Below, piece after piece: positions 7,576 to 63,449 of a stretch of 64,000 nucleotides of DNA. Source of the DNA: a virus. The position numbers and the translations under genes were made by a program. The stretch spans positions 87,374 to 151,373 of the IMG/VR virus record IMGVR_UViG_3300017917_004503. One strand, written 5' to 3'. Within the stretch, counting starts at the first letter, position 1, and each line of letters starts with the position of its first letter. Under the pieces are notes generated by a model. The model was given only the letters and a program-made list of their open reading frames with translations, made no database searches and was not told where the DNA came from.

Positions 7576-8763
7576 ATGACTGATTTTCTCAAAGAAAACG
7601 AACCAAAAACAAACGACTTTAACTGGGACATTCAAAATGGGATCAAACCCAACAAGAAATTGAAGAGAGTTCCTGCAGGATTCAAGGTGTTCTGTCATGA
7701 ACCTTATGCACAGGCTATGCTAGATTCCTACAACCAATTTTTTTCAGGATCCTCCCAAGTTGATGAATATGCTAAGGATTTATCCGAAGGTATGGTTTAT
7801 TCTTGTAGGATTGTAGTTCTGAAAGAAGACGAGGCACTAGCACAAACTTCGACAGGACAAACTATCTACATTGATCTAAAGAAAGAGAAAAAAGACGCGG
7901 AAAAGCTCAATATTAGCGGCTTAACATTTAACATCGGAGATACAGTTCAGGCTAGGATTAGAGTTTCTAATTCTAACTATTATGGTTCTGTTATTGAATA
8001 TTATATCCACAGCTTGAGACTGGAACTTTTTGAACAAATCAAAAAAGAAAACAGTGCTTATAGAGTAAAAATCGAAAGCATAAATAAGGGCGGATACATC
8101 GTAGATCTTTCTGGTATTAAGTGCTTCTTACCAGGTTCGTTAGCTGCGGCAAACAGAATTACCGATTTTGAATCATATTTAGGTAAAGAAATCCATGTTA
8201 TGATCGAGGGATATGTTGAGTCTAAGGACATTTTTATAGTTTCTTACAAGAAGTATCTTAGTAAAATTATGGAATCTAAGATACAAGAGCTTGATTTAAC
8301 TAAAAAATATAAAGGATTCGTTACTGGAACTAGTGAGTTTGGAGTTTTTGTTGAATGGGAGGAAGTTTACACTGGTCTTATTCATAAAACAGAATTCTTA
8401 GAGGATTCTGAGCTTACTTCAATCCATCCTGGAGACGAGATTGAATTTTACGTTAAAGAGATCAAGGATAACAATCGTCTTACTTTAACTCTAGAGAAAC
8501 CTTTAGAAAGAAATGTAATTATCCAAGATTTAGATAATCAAATTAAAGAAGGATCTATTGAACCACAAGAAGCGCGTATTAAGCACAGAAGAAAAAATGG
8601 AATTCTCGTTGACTTAATTAATCTTGGATTAATGGCCTTAGTCCCTCAGGAAAAGATTGGAAAGAAATCTAAGAATCTTAAACCTGGGGATGATCTGCTA
8701 GTTTTAGTTTATGAAGTTGAACCTTCTAGCGGAAAAATTTACGCTAGAACATTCAATGACTGA
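7576..8763 (+). CDS. Ribosomal protein S1-like multi-S1-domain RNA-binding protein
   Basis: 395 residues with repeated S1/OB-type modules. The clearest are about 160-225 (VKIESINKGGYIVDLSGIKC, FLPGSLAA) and 242-307 (KYKGFVTGTSEFGVFVEWEE, then TGLIHKTEF, then IHPGDEIEFYVKEI), plus a degenerate N-terminal one about 70-145 and a C-terminal one about 330-393 (ARIKHRRKNGILVDLINLGL, LVPQEKIG). The GFVxxxxxFGVFV and GLIH signatures are typical of S1 domains. Cellular S1 helps the 30S subunit bind unstructured AT-rich leaders, and S1-like proteins are known from some very large phages. It may steer ribosomes to this phage's leaders that lack Shine-Dalgarno sites. It overlaps the next gene by 8 nt. 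Confidence 0.8.
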   Translation: MTDFLKENEPKTNDFNWDIQNGIKPNKKLKRVPAGFKVFCHEPYAQAMLDSYNQFFSGSSQVDEYAKDLSEGMVYSCRIVVLKEDEALAQTSTGQTIYIDLKKEKKDAEKLNISGLTFNIGDTVQARIRVSNSNYYGSVIEYYIHSLRLELFEQIKKENSAYRVKIESINKGGYIVDLSGIKCFLPGSLAAANRITDFESYLGKEIHVMIEGYVESKDIFIVSYKKYLSKIMESKIQELDLTKKYKGFVTGTSEFGVFVEWEEVYTGLIHKTEFLEDSELTSIHPGDEIEFYVKEIKDNNRLTLTLEKPLERNVIIQDLDNQIKEGSIEPQEARIKHRRKNGILVDLINLGLMALVPQEKIGKKSKNLKPGDDLLVLVYEVEPSSGKIYARTFND

Positions 8764-10162
8764 TAATAGAAATCATTTTGATAAACTCAATGCACTAAGC
8801 TCTTCTTTAATAGGATTCGAGTTTGAATTCTATACAAATATGATGAAGGGCAAAGTTGCTGATTCTTTGTCAAAACTTCTAAACAAAAAAGTTCAGGTAT
8901 CGGAGAAATATCACTCAAAATTACCTGTAGACGCTAATACTTTTAAACTGGAGCCTGATTATTCGGGAGGTAGCAACATGATGGAATTCATTACTGGACC
9001 TCTCCCGTATAATGAGGCTATTCCTGTTTTAATAAAGTCACTTAATTGGATCGATGAAAACGGATGGACCAATGACAGATGTGCGTTTCAATTTTCTGTG
9101 AGCTTTGATAAATTCAGAAGGGACGTTAAAGACAGAATAGAAAATCTAGATAAATTAAAATTTATTCTAGGCCTGGATGAGGGATTAATTTATTCGAAGT
9201 TTGGTAACAGAAATAAAAATGTTTATGCTAAATCTATTAAAAGGGTAGTACCTAGAAATAGATTTTCTGTAGTTGAAAATATAACTACTATTGACCCCAA
9301 GATGTTTAAAATTCCTGAGGATAAGTATTATGGCGTCAATTTTACGAAAGCACCCAAAGGATATCTGGAGTTTCGCTACTTAGGTAATAGAGACTACCAG
9401 AAAAAAACTAAAGATATAAGGGAAATAATAGATTATGTTATTCTTTATCTCTATGATCTCCTTAGCCACAGAATTTCTGGATATACGAAGGAAGATTTAA
9501 AGAAATTGCAAGAACTTATGAACCAATACACAAAGGTTGTAAGATCGTTTAGCAATCCAGATTTCTTTTTCAGAAACTACCCAGATTTTCATGTCTTTGT
9601 TGATTTAAAGGGCTGGGATGAGAATATTAAAACATATTTTCCTGTCATAAGGGATAAGATCTTTGATATAATAGTGGAGGGAAACGTTAAATCTTGTTAT
9701 TTTAACTATGACACTACAACAGGTAGATACCAGTTAAAAGAAGCTAGAAGTAGAGAAGCTTTTATATTAGAAGACTTGGATCTCATTTCATGTGACATAA
9801 AAAATGGAATTGTTAAGAATTGTAACATATACGGTTCGAACATTAAAAAATCTTCTTTAGAAGATTGTAATGTTGTTTCCGATAACACTATCAAATCTTC
9901 AAAAATTAAAAATACTATATTAGGTTTTAAAAATGAAGTAGAGGATAGCTTTATCGATTGTGAAGGTAAGAATATCAACTGTAAAATAATAGGCGGTGTT
10001 TTTAGAGCTGGTAATGTTGGAGATCTAGCCGAAATTAGTAAAGAAACACTTAAAGTTAAGGGCTGGGAAGATTTTAGAAAACAGAGATTTGTTACAGATA
10101 GCAGATTAAAGAATTCTAATGATAAATACAATGTTTCCAAATTCGGAAACATGAATTTCTAA
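8756..10162 (+). CDS. Amidoligase-like protein with C-terminal beta-helix repeats
   Basis: Start chosen at ATG 8756, which overlaps the upstream stop (ATGACTGA); a longer frame from 8711 is possible but less likely. Residues 18-120 match the amidoligase/glutamine-synthetase-like pattern: LIGFEFEFY (the 'GiEiEf' strand), KLEPDYSGG, NMMEFITGPL, then a helix and CAFQFSVSFD in place of the usual 'cG.HvHv'. YLEFRYLG may be a second active-site strand. From about residue 336 to 420 there are short repeats (LEDLDLISCDIKNG, NCNIYGSNIKKSSLEDCNVV) resembling a right-handed beta-helix or pentapeptide-type fold. Known amidoligases make peptide-like bonds using ATP. Substrate is unknown. 468 residues. Confidence 0.6.
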   Translation: MTDNRNHFDKLNALSSSLIGFEFEFYTNMMKGKVADSLSKLLNKKVQVSEKYHSKLPVDANTFKLEPDYSGGSNMMEFITGPLPYNEAIPVLIKSLNWIDENGWTNDRCAFQFSVSFDKFRRDVKDRIENLDKLKFILGLDEGLIYSKFGNRNKNVYAKSIKRVVPRNRFSVVENITTIDPKMFKIPEDKYYGVNFTKAPKGYLEFRYLGNRDYQKKTKDIREIIDYVILYLYDLLSHRISGYTKEDLKKLQELMNQYTKVVRSFSNPDFFFRNYPDFHVFVDLKGWDENIKTYFPVIRDKIFDIIVEGNVKSCYFNYDTTTGRYQLKEARSREAFILEDLDLISCDIKNGIVKNCNIYGSNIKKSSLEDCNVVSDNTIKSSKIKNTILGFKNEVEDSFIDCEGKNINCKIIGGVFRAGNVGDLAEISKETLKVKGWEDFRKQRFVTDSRLKNSNDKYNVSKFGNMNF

Positions 10163-25718: not shown

Positions 25719-26486
25719 TTAATCCTTTCCTAATTTTGGGTTTTTTTGTTCCCAATCATCAAAAGTTTCCTCTATGATTTTTACTATAGGATCCCTCACT
25801 ATATCAGAAACCGAAAAATTCATAGTACCTATATCTTCTTTGTCGTCAAATAACTTAATTACAAGATCCAGTGCTGACATTCTAGAGTTTTTAATGTCTA
25901 TTTGTTTGGTGTCTCCTGTTATGATCATTTTAGTATCCGTCCCAATTCTAGTCATAGTGGATCTCATGTTTTTCTGAGTTATGTTTTGGGCTTCATCCAC
26001 TATGATTATTGCATTGTCTATCGATCTACCCCTTATATAAGCTAAGGGTAAAACCTCTATGTATCCTTGGTCTAACATTAATTGTGTTAAAGACTCTCCT
26101 ATTAATTTATGAAAATTATCTAGGAAAGAAATAGTAAAAGGGTACATTTTCTCTTTTAGATCTCCTTTTAAAAATCCAACTTCTTCACCCTCTAAAACTG
26201 TTACACTTTTAACTAAGATTATTTTTTTAAATCTTTGATCCGTTTTGAGCAATTTTAGTGCTTGAGCACATGCAAGGTAAGTTTTACCCGTTCCTGCTGG
26301 TCCTGCTGCAATAGTGATTTTGTTTTCATTTATTAGATTTATGAGTTTTTTCTGGTTTTCATTCTTAAACTTGTAATCTAACTTAAGTTTTTGAAGATCG
26401 AATCTAGATCCATGCTGGTTTGGGTTTCCTGAATGAAACGTTTCGTAATACTCTTCATCTGTAATTTTCTTTTTTCTACTTGCCAT
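25719..26486 (-). CDS. phoH: PhoH-like ATPase
   Basis: 255 residues on the minus strand, ATG complement at 26484-26486, and the only minus-strand gene in the window. Walker A is GPAGTGKT (62-69) and Walker B is IIIVDEAQN (161-168). It also has the PhoH signature segments VKSVTVLEGEEVGFLKGDL, EVLPLAYIRGRSIDNA and MIITGDTKQID. The first 45 residues are a charged extension. PhoH-type ATPases are common in T4-like phages and are linked to RNA metabolism, but their phage role is unsettled. Opposite orientation and its own bidirectional terminator suggest separate, perhaps early, expression. Confidence 0.93.
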   Translation of the reverse strand: MASRKKKITDEEYYETFHSGNPNQHGSRFDLQKLKLDYKFKNENQKKLINLINENKITIAAGPAGTGKTYLACAQALKLLKTDQRFKKIILVKSVTVLEGEEVGFLKGDLKEKMYPFTISFLDNFHKLIGESLTQLMLDQGYIEVLPLAYIRGRSIDNAIIIVDEAQNITQKNMRSTMTRIGTDTKMIITGDTKQIDIKNSRMSALDLVIKLFDDKEDIGTMNFSVSDIVRDPIVKIIEETFDDWEQKNPKLGKD

Positions 26487-51752: not shown

Positions 51753-51990
51753 TCCTAGCTCTGGCTTAGATATGACTGGTGAATGGGAAGAAGAATGTAA
51801 CATTCGAAATTCTCCTAAAATGAAATTTCCATTGAAGCTCATAGATGATTCTATGGAAAAAGTAGATCTAACGTTTGGAGAACCTGAATTAAAAGATCCA
51901 GAACCCAAAAAGAAAAAAAAGTTACAAGATCACAAAATTATAAATGTTGGACAGGGTTCCAAAAAAGAAAAAAAGAAAAGATTATTCTAA
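51715..51990 (+). CDS. Small charged protein between primase and UvsY-like gene
   Basis: Start uncertain: ATG at 51715 (overlapping the primase end) or 51772 just after the primase stop; a TTG at 51697 is in frame as well. The C-terminal 70 residues are strongly charged: acidic and hydrophobic (FPLKLIDDSMEKVDLTFGEP) then Lys-rich (PKKKKKLQ, KKEKKKRLF). No family is recognised. It overlaps the next start by one base (TAATG), so translational coupling with the UvsY-like protein is likely. It may be a partner of recombination or late transcription factors; this is only a guess from position. Confidence 0.5.
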   Translation: MMHLTLDTLLTNDPSSGLDMTGEWEEECNIRNSPKMKFPLKLIDDSMEKVDLTFGEPELKDPEPKKKKKLQDHKIINVGQGSKKEKKKRLF

Positions 51991-52433
51991 TGTCAACAGA
52001 AAAAACAGATTTTAATAAACTCTTTGAACAAGAGAGATCAGAGTGGAAAGAAAACATTCAGGTTATAGCCCTTCAAATGAAAGATATCAAAACTCTTGCT
52101 AAAGCTCAGGTTGATCTTTTTAGTCAGAGACAGATTTTACTTGAATATAGTTATAAACTAGCCTCAATAGTTACTAAACTAAATTCTAAACTAAGTTCAG
52201 AAAAAGCTAAAAAATTAAGAGAATATTCTGAAAGAACTGATGTTAGATATGGTTCGACAGAAAAAAACGTTTTGATCGAGGGTGATTTAACGGAGATCTC
52301 CGAAAAAATAGAACTTGTGGAGGGACATAGAAAATTTTTAGATCAAACTGTGCAAACTGTTGACCATATGCTTTACGCAATAAAAAATAGGATTGCACTG
52401 GAAGATTATCTAAGAGGATCTACAGTAAAATAA
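51990..52433 (+). CDS. UvsY-like recombination mediator
   Basis: 147 residues, close to T4 UvsY (137). Almost fully helical: QVIALQMKDIKTLAKAQVDL, LLEYSYKLASIVTKLNSKL, then a short loop RTDVRYGSTEKN and helices LVEGHRKFLDQTVQTVDHML, YAIKNRIALEDYLRG. The T4 counterpart also has helix, basic loop, then a helix ending 'aIk.....'. In T4, uvsY stands directly beside uvsW; here the UvsW-like helicase follows 32 nt later. UvsY loads the UvsX recombinase onto gp32-coated DNA. No UvsX is seen in this window. Weak sequence match strengthened by synteny. Confidence 0.55.
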   Translation: MSTEKTDFNKLFEQERSEWKENIQVIALQMKDIKTLAKAQVDLFSQRQILLEYSYKLASIVTKLNSKLSSEKAKKLREYSERTDVRYGSTEKNVLIEGDLTEISEKIELVEGHRKFLDQTVQTVDHMLYAIKNRIALEDYLRGSTVK

Positions 52434-52465: not shown

Positions 52466-54007
52466 ATGATTAAGTTTCAAATTACAGAAGACCAGCAATG
52501 GATGCTATTAACGGAGGCATTGGATGAGGTTGAAAAAAAGCAAATTGAGATTTCACTGACCCAAAAAATCCACAATTTTTATTTCCATCCTCTTGTTAAA
52601 AAGAAGATATGGGATGGTAGTATATGCTTTATAGAGAAAAAGGGTACATCCTGGAGAATCCCTATTGGTCTATGGCGGGAGGTCCTACAAATAGGAGATT
52701 CTTACAACATAAAAATTGAAATTGAAGGTCTCGATAATCTCATTTTTTCAGAATTGACTTTGGAGGATTTTACTGATTGGGTTAATAAATTTTTCGATGG
52801 GTCAGATAAACCACCGAGAGATTATCAAATAGAAACCGCTTGGAAAATAATAAGGTTTAGATATTCAGTTTCAGAAGTTGCAACTTCCTCTGGCAAAACA
52901 TTAATATCTTTTATGGTTTTTGCTTGGCTTAAACAATTTGGATATATTCGAAAATTTCTTATGATAGTACCAAGCACGAATTTAGTTTTTCAGGGCAGCG
53001 ACGATTTCATAGATTATGGCATAGATAAATTGGGATCCAAAATACAGCAAATAGGTGGAGGATCAAAACTAAGAGATGGGTGTGATGTTGTTATTGGAAC
53101 TTTTCAATCCCTTGTTAAACAAGATCCTGAATTTTTTGATGAAGTTGATCTAGTTTTTGTCGATGAAGCTCATCACACAAATAGCATGTCAATAAAAAAG
53201 ATAGTTGCTAATTGTATGAAGTCTAAATGGAGATTTGGACTTACCGGAACTTTAACTAAAAAAGGAACTGCAGATTATCTAACAGTTCAGCAATTTCTCG
53301 GTCCTTTGATTGTAGAGATCCCACCAAGCTTTTTATTTGCCAATAACTACGCTACTCCTGTGAATATTAAAATCGTTCAAATGGATTGGTTAGAGACAGA
53401 ATACAAGAATAAGCTTGCTGATTTAAAACAGAATAATAAGAACAGTCCAACTGAAAATAAACTAGAGGGAAATGAATTCTATAATATAGAAAGGAAACTT
53501 GTCGTTGAAAGCCGGAAGAGGTTAAACTTTGTAGTTGATTTCATCAATAAAACCTCTAAAAATTCTTTGGTCTTATTTCAATCTGTAAAAGACGAGTATG
53601 GTAAACAGATCTGGAATATGTTAAGAGAAAAAAGCTCAGAAAAGGAAGTGTTTTATGTTGATGGTGAAACTAGTGAAAATCTAAGAGAAGAATTCAAATC
53701 TAGAATGGCATCAGGAACCAATAAAATTCTGGTCGCTACTTACGGAACTTTTTCTACAGGTATTTCGATAAATAACCTTCATAATATTTTTTTAGTAGAG
53801 TCTTACAAAAGTGAGGTTTTGATTAAACAAAGCTTAGGAAGAGGTATGAGAAAAATGGACGGGAAAGAAAAAGTAAACGTTATAGATTTTGTTGATGATT
53901 TTTCTACACCTAAATATCAAAATTATCTCATGAAGCACAGTGAAGCAAGAATACAGATATATCAGAAAGAAGGTTTCGAGTACAAGATATTTAAAGTAAA
54001 ACTTTAA
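52466..54007 (+). CDS. uvsW: UvsW-like SF2 helicase
   Basis: 513 residues, near T4 UvsW length (about 500). Motif I is ATSSGKT (139-145), motif II DEAH (233-236) in VFVDEAHHTNS, motif III FGLTGTLT, motif VI QSLGRGMRKMD, with the Q-like PRDYQIETAWKI before motif I. The N-terminal about 110 residues match the UvsW small domain (KIHNFYFHPLVKKKIWDGSI). UvsW is a DNA and RNA-DNA helicase that removes R-loops, remodels branches and shuts off origin-dependent replication late in T4. Gene order after a UvsY-like protein is as in T4. Confidence 0.88.
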   Translation: MIKFQITEDQQWMLLTEALDEVEKKQIEISLTQKIHNFYFHPLVKKKIWDGSICFIEKKGTSWRIPIGLWREVLQIGDSYNIKIEIEGLDNLIFSELTLEDFTDWVNKFFDGSDKPPRDYQIETAWKIIRFRYSVSEVATSSGKTLISFMVFAWLKQFGYIRKFLMIVPSTNLVFQGSDDFIDYGIDKLGSKIQQIGGGSKLRDGCDVVIGTFQSLVKQDPEFFDEVDLVFVDEAHHTNSMSIKKIVANCMKSKWRFGLTGTLTKKGTADYLTVQQFLGPLIVEIPPSFLFANNYATPVNIKIVQMDWLETEYKNKLADLKQNNKNSPTENKLEGNEFYNIERKLVVESRKRLNFVVDFINKTSKNSLVLFQSVKDEYGKQIWNMLREKSSEKEVFYVDGETSENLREEFKSRMASGTNKILVATYGTFSTGISINNLHNIFLVESYKSEVLIKQSLGRGMRKMDGKEKVNVIDFVDDFSTPKYQNYLMKHSEARIQIYQKEGFEYKIFKVKL

Positions 54008-54038: not shown

Positions 54039-54569
54039 ATGAGACTCGAAAAATTTGATAATTTTACATCTAAAATTCAAGAAAATGAATATAGCTACTA
54101 TGGAGGAAATACTTCTTTTAGTCGCTGGCTAAGAAGAATTGATGATAAACTTGATAGTGAATATAGAAGTTTAAAGGGCGACGATAAACCTTCTAATGAT
54201 TTAGGAGCTAGAACCCTAAAGATGGCTTCCGCTGGTATTCCGCTCTTTTCTAGACTGATAACTAGCGGTGGTGCAGCTATAGCTGATTTCTTTTTTAAGG
54301 GAAAGGACAGATCTAGATATTCTAGAATGTCTAAACAAGAGCTCAGAAAACATAAAAAAGATGTTTTGGAAGATTGGGAGGAAGAGACCATTAAAAACAA
54401 AAAGGTTACCGAAAAAGACGCCGAGGAATTTTATAAATCTGGTGTTCTAAAAGGAAAGAAATATTTTGGTGAAAAATACGATCCAAGAACTCCCGAAGGA
54501 GACGATCAAAAAGAATACACTGAATACTTTACTTCAGCTATGAAAAAATATTACCAATCTCTCAAATAA
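54039..54569 (+). CDS. Hypothetical protein with capsid-targeting-like leader, 176 aa
   Basis: Family not recognised. The N-terminus MRLEKFDNFTSKIQE has an alternating hydrophobic pattern followed by residues 13-15 IQE, which fits a (L/I)xE prohead protease site. The body is basic and helical with a hydrophobic stretch about residues 60-85 (MASAGIPLFSRLITSGGAAI), possibly membrane-interacting, then charged helices (KQELRKHKKDVLEDWEEETI). Two nt separate it from the nucleotidyltransferase. May be an internal virion protein. Confidence 0.5.
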   Translation: MRLEKFDNFTSKIQENEYSYYGGNTSFSRWLRRIDDKLDSEYRSLKGDDKPSNDLGARTLKMASAGIPLFSRLITSGGAAIADFFFKGKDRSRYSRMSKQELRKHKKDVLEDWEEETIKNKKVTEKDAEEFYKSGVLKGKKYFGEKYDPRTPEGDDQKEYTEYFTSAMKKYYQSLK

Positions 54570-54571
54570 CT

Positions 54572-55504
54572 ATGCCAAAAAGAATATTAAATTTTTCACA
54601 TTTTGAAAGAATTTTTGAGGGAGGATCTGCAATCAAATCATCTAGGAGAATTCGTGAGGATGAGTTTGAAAAAACGCTAGAGACCATACAAGATTTACTT
54701 TTTCCTATTATCGGAATGGATCCTGAAAAAATGGGCAAAGAATATATTGTGATTGGAAGTATAGGTAAAAAGAAAGAAGCCTCTGATACTTCTGGCGATC
54801 TTGATATAGGTTATGATGGAGTTTCTTTTGCTAGAAGACAAGGAATTAGCTATAAAGAATGCTCAAAGAGAATGTATGAACTTATTTCGCAATCTCTTCC
54901 CGAAGTTTTAGGCTATGATATTGAAATTAAATATATGCCAGGTCTAAATATTACTAGTTTGGGATGGCCTATAGAGGGTGAGGAAAATAAAGGTGTGGTT
55001 CAACTTGACCTTATACCTTTATCTGATATGGATTGGGCTAAATTTATTTATTACTCCCCTGACTATAAAAAATCCGAGAGCAAATATAAATCTGCCCATC
55101 GTAATTGGCTTCTGGCTTCAATACTTTCAGCTAGAAAAAATGTCATAGAAAGAGACGAAGAAGGAGAGATAATGGATTATGAAAAACCTGTTTTAATTCT
55201 TAGCGATGGAATTTATTGGCATAAAAAGTCATATAAAGGATCTAGGATTCCTAGATTAAAACACTCTAAAAAAATTGAGGGAAGCGAAAGATTTATTACC
55301 AACGATCCTCAAGAATTTATAGACTTTACACTAGGTCCAGGATATACCCAGGAGGATGTTAAAACTTTTGAACAGGTTCTAAAGATTATAGAAGATCCTA
55401 AATTTGAACTTCATGATCAATTACCAGAAATAAAGGAAACTTTTCTCCAGTACTTAGAAAGAGTTGGATTGGAAATACCATCCGAAATAAATAGAATAGC
55501 ATAA
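54572..55504 (+). CDS. Pol-beta-like nucleotidyltransferase with capsid-targeting-like leader
   Basis: 310 residues. Leader MPKRILNFSHFERIFE, with IFE at 14-16 fitting a prohead protease site. The catalytic pattern of the pol-beta nucleotidyltransferase fold is visible: IVIGSIGKKKEAS, then SGDLDIGYD (DxD), then VVQLDLIPLSDMDW as the third acidic strand. The C-terminal part (RIPRLKHSKKIEGSERF, LGPGYTQEDVKTFEQVL) is typical of phage-encoded versions. The family transfers nucleotides to RNA, proteins or small molecules; substrate here is unknown. Twenty nt before the ligase-NMNAT fusion, suggesting a joint function. Confidence 0.65.
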   Translation: MPKRILNFSHFERIFEGGSAIKSSRRIREDEFEKTLETIQDLLFPIIGMDPEKMGKEYIVIGSIGKKKEASDTSGDLDIGYDGVSFARRQGISYKECSKRMYELISQSLPEVLGYDIEIKYMPGLNITSLGWPIEGEENKGVVQLDLIPLSDMDWAKFIYYSPDYKKSESKYKSAHRNWLLASILSARKNVIERDEEGEIMDYEKPVLILSDGIYWHKKSYKGSRIPRLKHSKKIEGSERFITNDPQEFIDFTLGPGYTQEDVKTFEQVLKIIEDPKFELHDQLPEIKETFLQYLERVGLEIPSEINRIA

Positions 55505-55524: not shown

Positions 55525-57546
55525 ATGTCAGGAATAAGCCATTTATATGATCTTTATAATAAGAAAGGAAAGGAGTTCATCAATGAACTTTTTACCAATT
55601 ATGTAACGGTAAACGAAAAAATGGACGGCTCTGCTTTCATGTTTGAGAGAGACCCAGAGACGGGAAAATTTACGTTTTATAAAAGAGATCAAAGAACTCC
55701 TATCACACTTATAGATAGGACACTCATGAAATATTATGAGAAACCCATTCAATACATAGAATCACTTCCTGTTCATATAATTAAGGAAATTCCCAGAGGC
55801 TGGAGATTCGGATTGGAATATTTCGCTAATAATGCCCCTGTTGAGATAGTCTATGACGAAATCCCTAAAAACAATCTCATTTTATCTTACATCCATAAAA
55901 GAGACGAAGATGGAAAAATTAGAGGAACCATACAAGAAAAAGAAAGTTTAGATAACTGGGCAGATCTTCTAGGTGTTGAAAGACCGCCTATTATCTTTCA
56001 GGGTTATCTAAATGATGAACAAAAAAGACAGATTGTAGATTTTCTTCAAACCCCTTTCGAAGATTTGTTACAAGAATATAAAACCAAAAGTTTTGTAGCT
56101 TTTATAGTTGGAGTTCTTAATCCTGAATTAAAGAAGACTGCTTTAAATTTTGATCTTGAAAAACCTATCGAAGGTATAGTTTTTAGATTCGGAGACGAAT
56201 CATCTGATAAAGAACCAATTCTATCCAAGATGGTTGATCCGATTTTCACAGAAATGGCTAAAAATAAAGCTAGAAAAAAGATAGATGAAAAACCAAGCGA
56301 TTTTCTAGGCTTAACCCTTTTAGATGTTATGAATTTCATCTTAGAAAAAGGCGTCAATAGTTTTGAATCTCGAGGTAAAACAGAGGATCAAAGATACATT
56401 TCTTTTATATCTGATGTTTTTTCCAAATTTCTTGATGAGTATGCTTATAAATACAAAGGGGCCGATTTTCAAGAACCTGAATATCTGAAGAAGGATGAAT
56501 TCAGACTTAATAAGTCACTTATAAACGATAAAAGGGTTTTAAGCTATCTTGATCAAGATGAATCCTTCGAATCCCTCTTTAAGCTTATTTTAAACTCTTT
56601 TAGGAAGATTAAGAAGAGATCCGGAGGAATAATTACCCCTGGTATAATAAATCAATTTAATGATGTTGTAAAGGACATAGAAAAGAAAGTCTCTGTGGAT
56701 CAACCAAAGCTTCAAATAATGGAATCCGAATTACCTTCTTTTATGGACTTTAAAAAGTTGAATTTTCCAGACAAGAAGGTAGAATATGTTACTTCGGAAA
56801 ACGAAGATCCAAAAGATGACCATTTTTACTCTTATAATGAATTCATAACTGCTTTAGAAACAATAGACACAACTCCTAAAAAAGAGGTTGTTGTTAATGA
56901 AGTTGACGAATCTGACAAAAAAGATCTCAAGGAGGTTAATCTTATAGTTGGTAGATTCCAGCCTTTTCATAATGGTCATTTAAAAATGGCAAAAGTTATG
57001 AAGGAAAAAAATGATTTACCTAGCATAGTTGCTGTTATACATCCTGGACACAACAAATCAGGAAAATCTCCATTTCCTCAGGATCTAGTTTCCAAATACA
57101 TGGAAAGTGTTGTTAAGGAAAATCCTGATGTGATCGAGGGTTTTTATATGTCACCTCGTGGACTTCTAGGAGTTCTTTACGGTAAAGCTAAAGAACTTGG
57201 ATATTCAATTAAAGCCATAGCAGCTGGGGATGATCGTTTAGATGACTATAAAAAGCAAGCTGAGTATCTTAAAAAAGCAGGTGGAGATTTCCCGGATGAT
57301 ATAGAAGTAGTTGAAACCCCTCGAACTACTAGTGGGACTGAAGTTAGAAACCATCTACAAAATGAAGACTATTTAGCTTTTAAAAAATCAGTTCCATCTG
57401 GAGTTTCTGCACTTTATAATCAACTCCTTTCTTCCGTAACTGGAAAATCTATACAAGAATCTGAACAAGTTCTACTAACAGAAAGCGATAAAGCCATAAA
57501 GCAAATGAAAAAGCTTTCCTCCGTTAAAAAAAATAACTCAAAATGA
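55525..57546 (+). CDS. Fusion of RNA-ligase-type nucleotidyltransferase and NMN adenylyltransferase-like domain
   Basis: 673 residues. The N-terminal domain (about 1-240) has the ligase motif I K32-M-D-G in VTVNEKMDGSAF, a motif III-like GWRFGLEYF, and motif IV IEGIVFRFGDE, as in ATP-dependent RNA/DNA ligases that form a lysyl-AMP. A helical middle (250-400) and a disordered acidic linker (400-470) follow. The C-terminal domain has GRFQPFHNGH (476-485), the HxGH nucleotidylyltransferase motif, and TTSGTEVR (601-608), the equivalent of the ISSTxxR motif, plus AAGDDR. This combination resembles NadM-type NMN adenylyltransferases. The two activities could be nucleic-acid repair plus NAD synthesis. 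The gene overlaps the next by 4 nt (ATGA). Confidence 0.75.
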   Translation: MSGISHLYDLYNKKGKEFINELFTNYVTVNEKMDGSAFMFERDPETGKFTFYKRDQRTPITLIDRTLMKYYEKPIQYIESLPVHIIKEIPRGWRFGLEYFANNAPVEIVYDEIPKNNLILSYIHKRDEDGKIRGTIQEKESLDNWADLLGVERPPIIFQGYLNDEQKRQIVDFLQTPFEDLLQEYKTKSFVAFIVGVLNPELKKTALNFDLEKPIEGIVFRFGDESSDKEPILSKMVDPIFTEMAKNKARKKIDEKPSDFLGLTLLDVMNFILEKGVNSFESRGKTEDQRYISFISDVFSKFLDEYAYKYKGADFQEPEYLKKDEFRLNKSLINDKRVLSYLDQDESFESLFKLILNSFRKIKKRSGGIITPGIINQFNDVVKDIEKKVSVDQPKLQIMESELPSFMDFKKLNFPDKKVEYVTSENEDPKDDHFYSYNEFITALETIDTTPKKEVVVNEVDESDKKDLKEVNLIVGRFQPFHNGHLKMAKVMKEKNDLPSIVAVIHPGHNKSGKSPFPQDLVSKYMESVVKENPDVIEGFYMSPRGLLGVLYGKAKELGYSIKAIAAGDDRLDDYKKQAEYLKKAGGDFPDDIEVVETPRTTSGTEVRNHLQNEDYLAFKKSVPSGVSALYNQLLSSVTGKSIQESEQVLLTESDKAIKQMKKLSSVKKNNSK

Positions 57547-58097
57547 AAAGATTAATATCAAATTTCTTAGACTTTAAAATTAATTCCAAATCTGTTAACG
57601 AGTCGGATGGTTTTGGTACCTCGTCATTCCTCTTAAGAAAACAGAGTGACGTGTATAACTATTTTTTCAATATTGAATCTGAAGAAACTAAAGAATCTAT
57701 CGGATTTCATTTAATTATAGGAAAATATTCTGGAAATGAAACAGTTGAAGGTCCTAAAAACTCGTATTGCGTTTTGACTCTCAATCAGATCTCACATGAG
57801 TTAATAGAGGATATTGCGATAGATAAAGAAGATGTTCCACAGTCAAACGATATGCAATTTACAGCAAAGGGCAACGACGTTTCGAGAATTATGGAATACG
57901 TCTCCAAATGTATTTTGAATTACCTGGAACTTAATCCTAAGATATTCATCATTTATGACGAAATACAAAACAACCTTACGTTCAAAGGAAAGGGAGAATA
58001 TCTCGAATTTATGAAGTCTATTATACTCTCATATCTCGGTCCTAAATGGTCAGTTCAACAGGGTTCATCAAAGAAATCTGTAATAATCAGTAGATAA
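57543..58097 (+). CDS. Hypothetical protein, 184 aa, coupled to the ligase-NMNAT fusion
   Basis: ATG overlaps the upstream stop (ATGA), indicating translational coupling. N-terminus MKRLISNFLDFKINSKSVNE is amphipathic and followed by SDG; the VNE at 18-20 is a looser version of the prohead protease pattern. The body alternates strands and helices (YNYFFNIESEETKESIGFHL, VSRIMEYVSKCILNYLELNP) and ends KKSVIISR. No motif of a known enzyme is recognised. Likely shares a task with the upstream fusion protein. Confidence 0.5.
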   Translation: MKRLISNFLDFKINSKSVNESDGFGTSSFLLRKQSDVYNYFFNIESEETKESIGFHLIIGKYSGNETVEGPKNSYCVLTLNQISHELIEDIAIDKEDVPQSNDMQFTAKGNDVSRIMEYVSKCILNYLELNPKIFIIYDEIQNNLTFKGKGEYLEFMKSIILSYLGPKWSVQQGSSKKSVIISR

Positions 58098-58753: not shown

Positions 58754-58999
58754 ATGTCAAAGAAAGAACAAAGTGCAGAAACTAGTTTTTATGCTCCTCC
58801 TCAATCTCCTATTGCTATTCAACCAGGTGATACTGGATTTAAATTAATAGGTAAAGGATATAACAGATTCATCTGGACCTTTGGTGATTGGTATAAGAAG
58901 AAGAAAAAAATAATAGATCCCGATAAAAACTGGGATTTAGCTTCTAAACCAATAACTCCAAAGGAATGGGAGAAAAAACAAAAAGACCTATATCTATAG
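58754..58999 (+). CDS. Small basic protein, second of a tandem paralogue pair, 81 aa
   Basis: Residues 7-50 (SAETSFYAPPQSPIAIQPGD, TGFKLIGKGYNRFIWTFGDW, YKKKK) match the preceding 57-residue protein, then a charged extension follows (DPDKNWDLASKPITPKEWEK). The two probably arose by tandem duplication and diverged. The stop codon TAG lies inside the terminator stem at 58981-59008. Function unknown; the Pro-rich start and aromatic helix suggest protein binding. Confidence 0.6.
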   Translation: MSKKEQSAETSFYAPPQSPIAIQPGDTGFKLIGKGYNRFIWTFGDWYKKKKKIIDPDKNWDLASKPITPKEWEKKQKDLYL

Positions 59000-59008
59000 G
59001 TCTTTTTT
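58981..59008. terminator. Terminator overlapping the end of the second small paralogue
   Basis: AAAAGACCTATA and TATAGGTCTTTT flank a 2-nt spacer (so the real loop is slightly larger), with T-run after and A-run before. The last four codons and the TAG stop of the 58754-58999 gene form part of the stem. Confidence 0.88.
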
Positions 59009-59011
59009 GTT

Positions 59012-59019
59012 GATATATA
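59012..59019 (+). promoter_or_regulatory. GATATATA octamer, candidate promoter element
   Basis: TTGTTGATATATAGCTATAC lies directly behind the terminator and 8 nt before the ATG at 59028. If it is a -10-like element, the gene would be almost leaderless. Confidence 0.35.
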
Positions 59020-59027
59020 GCTATACA

Positions 59028-59834
59028 ATGGCAACTCCTAAGAAAGATTTTAAATCGACCTTAAAATTCTGTAAAAATTGCGGAGAACCGCTTGAATTAA
59101 AAGTATCCAGAGATCTAATAAGAAAAAATTTCTGTTCTAGAAGATGTAATGGGATTTTTAGAGGCAAAAAAGCATTTGAAGATCCTGTATTTAGAGAAAA
59201 ATTCATCTCATCTTCACACACTTTGGATGTGAACATGAAAAGATCCGAGAAAATGAAACGTGAAAATCATCCTTTATGGGTCGGAATGGATCTTAGAAAT
59301 TGTCTAAATTGTAATAAGGAATTCTCTTGCAGAAAAACGAAGAATAATAAATACTGTAGCCTTTCTTGCTCACTAAAAAAAATTCATCAGGATAATATAG
59401 GGGACAAAGTTGAAAAAATAGAGTATTCTTGTATTATCTGTGGAAATCCTTTCAAAAGAAGTATAAACTATAAATATAATCCACTCTATTGTTCTTATAG
59501 GTGTAATGGAATAGACAGATGCAAAAAAAGTAAAAAGAGTAGAACAGACATAGAAATTTTATTAGCCGGTATTTTAGAATCGATGAACCTCGATTTCATA
59601 GAACAGATAAATGTTAAGAATGTCTCGGTTGTTGATTTTTTACTTGATGATCTGATAATTTTTGCTGATGGCGAATACTGGCACAATTTACCAGGAAGAC
59701 TAGATAGAGATAAAGAACAAACCGAAAAACTTGAAAGATTGGGCTATAAGGTCTTTAGATTTTCTGGGGGTCAGATAAAAAATAACCCTGAATACATAAA
59801 AGAAAAAATATATAATTATTATGAATCAAATTAA
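59028..59834 (+). CDS. Zinc-ribbon Vsr/EDxHD-type endonuclease, possible free-standing homing endonuclease
   Basis: Start at ATG 59028; TTG 59007 is in frame but lies in the terminator. Three N-terminal zinc-ribbon-like modules are visible: FCKNCG...NFCSRRCNG, NCLNCN...YCSLSC, SCIICGNPF...YCSYRCNG. The C-terminal domain is a Vsr/DUF559-like nuclease: RTDIEILLAGILE, then VSVVDFLLDDLIIFADGEYW followed by H, then EKLERLGYKVFRFSGGQI. The E...D...H...layout fits EDxHD homing endonucleases. These enzymes move their own gene into related phages. The gene overlaps the next start by 14 nt. Confidence 0.7.
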   Translation: MATPKKDFKSTLKFCKNCGEPLELKVSRDLIRKNFCSRRCNGIFRGKKAFEDPVFREKFISSSHTLDVNMKRSEKMKRENHPLWVGMDLRNCLNCNKEFSCRKTKNNKYCSLSCSLKKIHQDNIGDKVEKIEYSCIICGNPFKRSINYKYNPLYCSYRCNGIDRCKKSKKSRTDIEILLAGILESMNLDFIEQINVKNVSVVDFLLDDLIIFADGEYWHNLPGRLDRDKEQTEKLERLGYKVFRFSGGQIKNNPEYIKEKIYNYYESN

Positions 59835-61559: not shown

Positions 61560-63449
61560 ATGTCAAAAGTAATAGGAATCGACTTAGGAACCACGAATTC
61601 GTGCGTTTCAGTAATTGAAGGATCTTCACCAGTTGTGATAGTGAATTCTGAAGGTAAAAGAACAACCCCTAGCGTTGTTTCATTTAAGGATAACGAGATT
61701 AAGGTTGGGGATCCAGCTAAGAGACAATCGGTTACAAATCCAGAAAACACCATTTACTCAGTCAAAAGATTTATTGGGTCTAAGTTCACTGAGGTTAAAA
61801 AAGAAGCTAAGAAAATGCCTTATAAGGTAAAGGAGGGCGAATCACAAAAAGTAATCATTGAAACCAACAATAGAAAATACGTTCCCCAAGAAATTTCTGC
61901 TATAGTTTTACAAAACTTGAAAAGAACAGCGGAAGAATATTTAGGTGACAGCGTCACAAAAGCAGTTATCACTGTTCCTGCCTATTTTAATGATAGTCAA
62001 AGACAAGCTACAAAAGAAGCCGGAGAAATTGCAGGTTTGGAAGTTCTTAGAATTATAAACGAGCCAACTGCAGCAGCTTTAGCTTATGGCCTTGATAAAG
62101 GAGACAAAGATATGAAAGTTGCAGTCTATGACTTAGGAGGAGGTACTTTCGACGTATCTATTCTTGAAATCGGATCTGGTGTTTTTGAAGTTTTATCTAC
62201 TAATGGAGACACACATCTCGGTGGTGATAATTTCGATGAGAAGATAATCGATTGGATCGTTGAAGAATTCAAGACTGAGTCTGGTATAGACACATCTAAA
62301 GACCCAATGGCATACCAAAGAATCAGAGAAGCAGCGGAAAAGGCTAAGATTGAATTATCTTCTTCTTCTGAGACTGAAATCAACTTACCATATTTAACTG
62401 CAGATTCAAGCGGACCTAAACACTTCGTCAAGAAAATCACCAGAGCAGCTTTTGAAGCTATGTGTTCGGATCTTATTGACAAAACGCTTGCACCTTGCAA
62501 AAAAGCCTTAAATGATGCAGGATTAAAAGCGTCAGATATTGACGAAGTTATTTTAGTTGGCGGATCAACTAGAATACCTAAAGTACAGGATGAGGTTGAA
62601 AAACTTTTCGGTAAGAAGCCATCTAAAAACGTAAATCCTGATGAAGTAGTAGCAATCGGTGCTGCTATCCAAGGAGGGGTTTTAGCAGGAGAGATTAAAG
62701 ACGTACTTCTTTTAGATGTAACCCCACTTTCCCTCGGTATTGAAACTATGGGCGGAGTTTTCACCAAACTGATTGAGTCCAATTCGACAATACCAATTAC
62801 AAAGAGTGAAATATTCTCTACTGCGGTAGATAATCAACATGCGGTTGATATTCACGTTTTGCAAGGCGAAAGACCTATGGCAGCTGATAATAGAACACTT
62901 GGTAAATTTCAATTAACCGACATTCCCCCAGCAATGAGGGGTGTACCTAAAATTGAAGTAACATTTGATATTGACGCAAATGGCATTATCAGCGTTTCTG
63001 CCAAGGATCAAGGAACAGGAAAGAAACAAAACATTCGAATTGAATCAGGAAGTAAATTAACACAAGATGAGATTGAAAAGATGAAGAGAGAAGCTGTTGA
63101 AAATGACGAAGCTGATAAGAAGAGATTGAAAAAATCCCAAATCTCCAACACAGCAGATTCGCTTTGCTTCCAGACCGAAAAAGCCCTTGATGATGTGAGT
63201 GAGAAGATCGAAGATGATGAGAAAGAGAAAATTAAAACTTTGGTTGATGAGCTAAGAAAACTAAAAGACGGAGATGACATTGACGCCACTGAATCCAAAA
63301 TGAAGGAACTTAGCGATAAAATGAATGAAGTAATGACCAAAGTTTACGCAGCTGAGTCACAAAATAATGAAAAGACTGAAACTGGTGAAGCAAGTGAGAA
63401 TGTGAATGTTGAGGATGCTGAATTCGAGGAAGTTACGGATAAAAATTAA
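61560..63449 (+). CDS. dnaK: Hsp70 chaperone DnaK, full length
   Basis: 629 residues, same length as cellular DnaK. The nucleotide-binding domain has [40 protein letters not shown] and [12 protein letters not shown]. The interdomain linker [20 protein letters not shown] is intact, and the substrate domain has [19 protein letters not shown]. The C-terminal lid ends in [11 protein letters not shown], close to the bacterial EEV terminus. All catalytic parts appear present, so it should be active. Leader is aaataaaataaaataaacatATG without Shine-Dalgarno. It probably assists folding of very large virion proteins or replication complexes. DnaJ and GrpE are not in this window; host partners may be used. 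Confidence 0.97.

Follow-up and report, generated by a model that had tools for sequence, protein, structure and literature searches.

The window analysed is a stretch of 64,000 nucleotides, bases 87374-151373 of a viral record of 151,373 bases. On its plus strand, positions 55525-57546 hold a coding sequence of 673 amino acids with an ATG start, supported by the list of open reading frames, by 78 related loci and by an AlphaFold model. Its product is arranged in the order ligase-type nucleotidyltransferase, helical domain, disordered linker and HIGH nucleotidyltransferase. The single open frame was found exactly as claimed by the original prediction, and all the motifs named there are present: EKMDG (K32), GWRFGLEYF (E98), IEGIVFRF (E216-G217), GRFQPFHNGH (residues 476-485) and TTSGTEVR (to R608). 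Genes for tail tube, gp32, primase, UvsY and UvsW proteins lie upstream and a DnaK-like ORF lies downstream; these neighbours identify the source as a T4-like myovirus.

A scan of viral contigs recovered 78 loci related to the fusion, nearly all encoding the full-length fusion, down to approximately 39% identity; the 462-kb phage LR756500 (locus L080) carries it at 31% identity. The survey of other phages that had been proposed thus yielded the same single-frame fusion in 78 viral loci. This recurrence rules out a sequencing error or two joined genes, whether by a frameshift or by an assembly joint: the fusion is real and widespread in large T4-like phages. The 78 loci share the gene order uvsY-uvsW-X-(pol-beta)-fusion-57543. 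In one locus (L012, 6420-8987) the fusion frame continues into the 57543 homologue to give 855 amino acids, as a natural fusion or an indel, and in L022, L025, L047, L065 and L067 one to three extra ORFs of approximately 210-530 amino acids separate the two genes. A pattern-based scan of cellular genome contigs for a cellular origin gave, among the matches listed, HIGH-domain matches only, mostly archaeal.

Amino acids 1-245 of the fusion (55525-56259, plus strand) form a covalent nucleotidyltransferase core, recognized by its motifs, by Foldseek and by Pfam matches in homologues. The ligase motifs follow in order: I (EKMDG, with K32 and D34-G35), III (E98), IV (E216-G217) and V (K235). The predicted adenylylated lysine, K32 (codon 55618-55620, plus strand), is lysine in 32 of 40 non-redundant homologues and asparagine or aspartate in 8. 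When the AlphaFold model (36 input sequences, pLDDT 78, residues approximately 394-465 disordered) was compared with solved structures by Foldseek, the best fold for the N-terminus was T4 RNA ligase 2 (2hvr, E 1.2e-7; also 2hvq and 1s68), and full-length Rnl2 entries outranked the core-only entry. This likeness comes from fold comparison only; when PDB sequences were searched with a profile of just the ligase domain, nothing informative came out. The fusion itself fell below the 27-bit cut-off of PF09414 (RNA_ligase), scoring 16.3 bits (E 0.011) when the protein was scanned and 18.5 bits when the genome was searched; 27 of 36 homologues matched the family at E <= 0.05, the best at 1.6e-7.

The core is followed by an all-helical domain (amino acids 246-393, 56260-56703, plus strand) with no beta (OB) domain, as judged from the secondary structure of the model. 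Rnl2 likewise has a helical domain at this place, where DNA ligases and capping enzymes have an OB domain. The predicted model contains the Rnl2-type fold, a ligase core with a helical C-terminal domain. The fusion shares with T4 Rnl2 (gp24.1) this fold, motifs I, III, IV and V and the helical second domain, but differs from it in its low Pfam score, in being joined to a HIGH domain and in the loss of the lysine in one clade. A role as replicative DNA ligase was ruled out by a separate replicative DNA ligase encoded in the same genome (PF01068, 6.3e-21).

The C-terminal part (amino acids 467-640, 56923-57444, plus strand) is a HIGH-superfamily nucleotidyltransferase carrying GRFQPFHNGH and SGTEVR. 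It matched PF01467 (CTP_transf_like) at 9.8e-8, with 32.7 bits against a cut-off of 21, and 34 of 36 homologues matched the same family; TIGR00125 was matched with 31.4 bits against a cut-off of 27.7, its (H/T)xGH site corresponding to H482 and H485. In the model this domain matched NadD, NMNAT and PPAT structures (Foldseek). With folds matching on both sides, the two-domain composition that had been predicted was confirmed. Between the helical and HIGH domains lies the disordered linker (amino acids 394-466, 56704-56922, plus strand), with pLDDT below 50 over most of its length. Its only invariant residues are E400, F406, F409 and F440, within [IV]xES..SFxDF and YNEF, which are kept in nearly all homologues.

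Upstream from the fusion, positions 54572-55504 (plus strand) encode a pol-beta-type nucleotidyltransferase of 310 amino acids (G62-S63, D76-x-D78, D146), recognized from alignment, model and Foldseek. The GS pair and D76, D78 and D146 are invariant in 35 aligned sequences. In the model (pLDDT 89.8) disorder is confined to residues 1-17, and the closest folds, pol beta, TUT7, Cid1, CutA and MenT3, are all of pol-beta type, with a best E of 7e-3 and none at or below 1e-3. RNA ligases of jumbo phages are often paired with a pol-beta enzyme, RlaP, a known theme of phage RNA repair (PMC7824862). As in these systems, a pol-beta nucleotidyltransferase adjoins an RNA-ligase-type enzyme; in contrast to them, the 54572 product has a leader resembling capsid-targeting sequences (CTS) and a HIGH domain is present. 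The product matched no Pfam, PHROG or NCBIfam family, hence no curated RlaP model; by analogy it may be RlaP-like in the role proposed below. The gene is missing from several fusion-bearing lineages.

The remaining neighbours are all on the plus strand. UvsY-type recombination mediator (51990-52433) and UvsW-type helicase (52466-54007) genes, both assigned by Pfam, PHROG and gene order, lie upstream, the latter as a conserved anchor. A conserved gene for 176 amino acids (54039-54569) was recognized by gene order and leader scans, and another for 184 amino acids (57543-58097) shares its first 4 bases with the end of the fusion gene. Further downstream are a DUF3008 protein (PF11450, 59821-60219), whose look-alike, S-SCSM1 ORF93, is annotated as a virion protein, and a full-length DnaK-like (Hsp70) ORF (61560-63449) that matched phrog_22485 at E 6.9e-262, a family with no function annotated. 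An HNH/DUF559-type endonuclease ORF (59007-59834), between the genes at 58754 and 59821, was unmatched at the same place in the relatives compared and is probably a mobile insertion. No tRNA genes were found in the examined genome sequence.

The ligase residues K32, E98, E216-G217 and K235 are intact in 32 non-redundant homologues out of 40, and 31 of these 32 also retain the HxGH of the HIGH site; both sites are intact down to approximately 54% identity. Locus L056 keeps the ligase residues and has lost the HIGH-site histidines, and in LR756500 (L080), conversely, the ligase site is changed and TxGH intact. Such partly independent decay argues against a strictly coupled reaction of the two activities. 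Loci L063-L072 carry K32N, E98A or V, E216D and G217S, together with an altered HIGH site (N482, SGT motif gone). In the 642-kb and 735-kb mahaphages LR756502 and LR756501, K32, K235 and the HIGH domain are absent. The loss of active-site residues in relatives, which had been named as evidence against the predicted functions, is thus true only of a divergent clade: in the tree, which has long branches, the lysine-less homologues are one side of one branch with support 97/99. Retention of the domain after loss of the lysine in 8 of 40 homologues indicates a non-catalytic role, at least in that clade. In LR756500 the gene directly upstream from the fusion (L080, 6704-7969) encodes a further ligase-type protein, whose motifs are intact.

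The association between ligase and HIGH domains is found in other architectures. In phrog_27149 (Campylobacter Firehammervirus CP21, 503 aa; Vibrio pv27, 484 aa) both occur in one chain in the same order; these proteins are shorter than the fusion and very divergent from it, and CP21 has a deviant HIGH motif (GKFRILTKAH). The pv27 ligase domain aligned with the fusion family by profile at E 4e-6, and a viral scan with the pv27 protein as query found no relatives. The phrog_3041 and phrog_395 "cytidyltransferase" families have a HIGH domain related to that of the fusion. In Stenotrophomonas phage Ps15 (a Menderavirus) and Xanthomonas phage X1, genes labelled, by motif only, as pol-beta-like and ligase-like stand in a row with an unknown gene and a HIGH gene (order pol-beta-like, unknown, ligase-like, HIGH) near the baseplate hub gene. 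The Ps15 pol-beta did not align with the 54572 product by profile comparison, nor did the pol-beta profile give a significant match in distant phage loci.

The reverse order, HIGH then ligase, was found in Microcystis phage Mel-JY01 (639 aa) and LR756508 (915 aa). In dozens of marine contigs it is extended to a kinase-HIGH-ligase chain of up to 1642 amino acids, with a P-loop kinase (AAA_33/zeta, matched at 6e-8 to 1e-7 in the two chains that were scanned). The ligase family of these proteins was assigned through its canonical motifs only (EKxDG, ARNKG, LE, EG and YKxTG) and gave no profile alignment with the ligase domain of the fusion. The marine proteins thus resemble the fusion in joining HIGH and ligase-type domains in one chain, but differ in domain order, in the ligase subfamily and in the added kinase and unknown domains. 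Among the marine contigs that encode such giant proteins are L116 (1916-5797) and L141 (1347-6275); in L116 the ligase is preceded by LIIE-GGAYGHMNHPF, which looks like a head-protease site.

Proteins encoded on both sides of the fusion start with leaders of the type that targets T4 proteins to the capsid. Like the adjacent nucleotidyltransferase gene, these leaders had been overlooked in the original prediction. The 54039, 54572 and 57543 products each have a short variable leader with [FY]xx[FW] that ends at a glutamate before the conserved core. In the 54039 protein it reads MRLEKFDNFTSKIQE-N; in the 54572 protein it comprises amino acids 1-16 (54572-54619, plus strand), ends at the invariant E16 followed by GG and is predicted to be cleaved; in the 57543 protein it is followed by a conserved (A/S/G)DGFG. 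Divergent homologues vary the leader and keep the pattern, as in MERKIRNFIEFINE-ADGFG and MASIKKFNEFLESVFE-SDGFG for 57543. The genome encodes a Peptidase_S77 (gp21-type) protease (1.3e-10).

Of 129 ORFs, 14 begin with a loose form of the leader motif; the corresponding numbers were 6.5 +- 2.0 for internal windows and 4.1 +- 1.9 for shuffled starts. The strict motif occurs 12 times in 49,226 amino acids, 8 of them within the first approximately 15 residues, and 3 of these 8 are the three genes around the fusion; the binomial value of approximately 2e-9 is indicative, because the motif was shaped after examples seen. These proteins resemble T4 internal proteins, which carry a CTS and are matured by gp21 (PMC10229621, PMC5694885). 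In the fusion, by contrast, the N-terminus (MSGISHLYDLYNKKGKEFI) has no CTS leader cut after [IL]xE, and a similar motif is found in the linker only. The linker does resemble the capsid-targeting leaders of this phage; the short motif of this type has 34 matches elsewhere in the proteome and was rejected as a diagnostic of packaging on its own.

Among distant relatives of the HIGH domain, S-SCSM1 ORF91, a HIGH-domain protein of 409 amino acids, was detected in cyanophage virions (PMC9602691), as was S-CREM2 ORF154; the authors of both papers allow for contamination. ORF91 starts with MKSFLQFLKE-A and matches the HIGH profile of the fusion at 3e-9. Neither protein is a ligase fusion. The S77 protease, the enrichment of leaders at protein starts, their persistence in homologues and the virion detection of ORF91 together argue for packaging: the flanking-gene products are probably packaged, and the fusion protein, for which the indication is weaker, may be.

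With moderate confidence, we propose that the fusion and the pol-beta enzyme form a cassette for the repair of RNA ends that is plausibly carried in the phage head. Starting from the domains, motifs, conservation, gene order, leaders and protease gene described above, the fusion would combine in one chain an Rnl2-like RNA ligase with a HIGH nucleotidyltransferase, and the pol-beta protein would be a third enzyme, all acting on RNA ends that host defences have cut. Missing nucleotides would be put back by the pol-beta enzyme, the ligase would activate the 5'-phosphate via lysyl-AMP and then seal, and the HIGH domain could assist by transferring an adenylyl or nucleotidyl group to that substrate or to a cofactor. 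The products of the flanking genes, at least, would enter the prohead through their T4-type leaders, be cut by the gp21-type protease and pass into the cell along with the DNA. In the fusion, the conserved disordered linker might serve the same purpose and let the ligase and HIGH parts be separated. The Rnl2 fold match, the helical second domain, the separate DNA ligase and the adjacent pol-beta fold, which also bear out the RNA-repair half of the original prediction, point to this role, as does the repeated association of ligase and HIGH, whether fused as here, fused the other way round with a kinase, or encoded by neighbouring genes. Against it stand the loss of the ligase lysine and other motifs in the clade of 8 homologues, the lineages lacking the pol-beta gene, and the reverse-order ligase and Ps15 pol-beta that did not align by profile; against packaging stand the absence of an N-terminal leader in the fusion, the frequency of linker-like motifs and the lack of a ligase in the virion-detected relatives.

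The other half of the original prediction, that the HIGH domain is an NMN adenylyltransferase converting NMN to NAD, so that end repair would be joined to NAD supply against NAD-depleting defences, now appears unlikely. GRFQPFHNGH and SGTEVR do resemble NadM/NadR-type NMNATs, the best PDB sequence matches of the domain were MJ0541 and other NMNATs, and the Rossmann-like fold is shared with NadM-, NadR- and NadD-type enzymes. However, the domain stays below the cut-off of every NMNAT equivalog or subfamily model in NCBIfam (best PRK01153, 27.4 against 127 bits; TIGR01527, 22.4 against 181), has a ligase in place of a Nudix or ribosylnicotinamide-kinase partner, and belongs to a family with its own conserved GxDRxxDYxxQ loop. 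NadV-type genes (PF04095) were found in seven of the fusion-bearing viral-contig genomes examined for them (G002, G003, G004, G005, G007, G011 and G012, of which G003 and G011 are near-identical in size), and the NAD reading could apply in G002 and G004, since the fusion holds the only HIGH domain found there. Such genes also occur in LR756500, two mahaphages, Ps15 and X1. But Ps15 and LR756500 have, besides the ligase-linked gene, a separate HIGH/NMNAT-type gene near NadV (in Ps15 with GRFQPFHIGH, 352 aa), and in mahaphage LR756502 such a gene adjoins NadV. In G003, G005 and G007 a Prs-like gene, read from the sequence by eye, lies close to NadV as in NARP1, a pathway that needs no NMNAT (PMC12774641). 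The loci concerned (L276, L274 and L277, respectively) were noted by eye as NARP1-like, G003 having macro-/NADAR-like ORFs as well and G007 being similar. NadV was not found in CP21, pv27, Mel-JY01 or the examined part of the source genome, and the HIGH-ligase association persists in phages without it: the HIGH domain travels with ligase-type proteins, not with NadV. The two folds, K32 and H485 as key residues and RNA repair were thus supported, while the NMN adenylyltransferase and its coupling to NAD supply were not. A survey of viral NAD systems describes NadM and NadR fusions, and a term search of that text found no ligase-HIGH fusion (PMC9503650).

A chiefly structural or binding role of the protein in the virion or in its assembly, with nucleotidyltransferase folds recruited as scaffolds and catalysis optional, seems quite improbable. 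Such a role would account for domains that outlive their catalytic residues (K32 in L063-L072, L080 and the mahaphages, with changes of E98, E216 or K235; the histidines in L056; the whole HIGH domain in the mahaphages), strict synteny would suit a core function, and neighbours bear head-type leaders; yet the two intact catalytic sites in 31 of 40 homologues, and ligase motifs kept in unrelated architectures, would be needless for pure scaffolds. Processing of phage or host DNA ends in replication, recombination or genome entry is highly improbable: the fusion lies near uvsW and uvsY in essentially all loci of the source lineage, but its position is not the same in other phages, and the Rnl2 structure, helical domain and separate DNA ligase speak against it. 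A virion-borne kit, in which one precursor enters the prohead, has its linker cut by the gp21-type protease and is injected to act before phage gene expression, strikes us as very doubtful; here the NMNAT-like chemistry of the HIGH domain, AMP onto a 5'-phosphate, would act on RNA 5' ends, providing the ligase with AppRNA or a similar cap. A review raises NMNATs as RNA NAD-capping enzymes, with no such activity reported for E. coli NadD and NadR (PMC8131947).

RNA-end repair is thus the best-supported role, and from sequence and predicted structure the fusion appears tied to ligase function and not to NAD salvage. HIGH proteins labelled "cytidyltransferase/NMNAT" are common in T4-like phages and have been seen in cyanophage virions, where they were explained through NAD metabolism; their repeated linkage to ligases, in both fused orders and as neighbours, points instead to nucleic-acid ends. 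If packaging is true, the repair enzymes injected by these phages would be able at once to counter RNA-cleaving defences that act early.

Elsewhere in the window, a PhoH-like gene (25719-26486, minus strand) lies inside a block of tail genes on the opposite strand, and an ORF of 483 amino acids (8711-10162) with LIGFEFEFYT has, by eye, the look of an amidoligase-type start.
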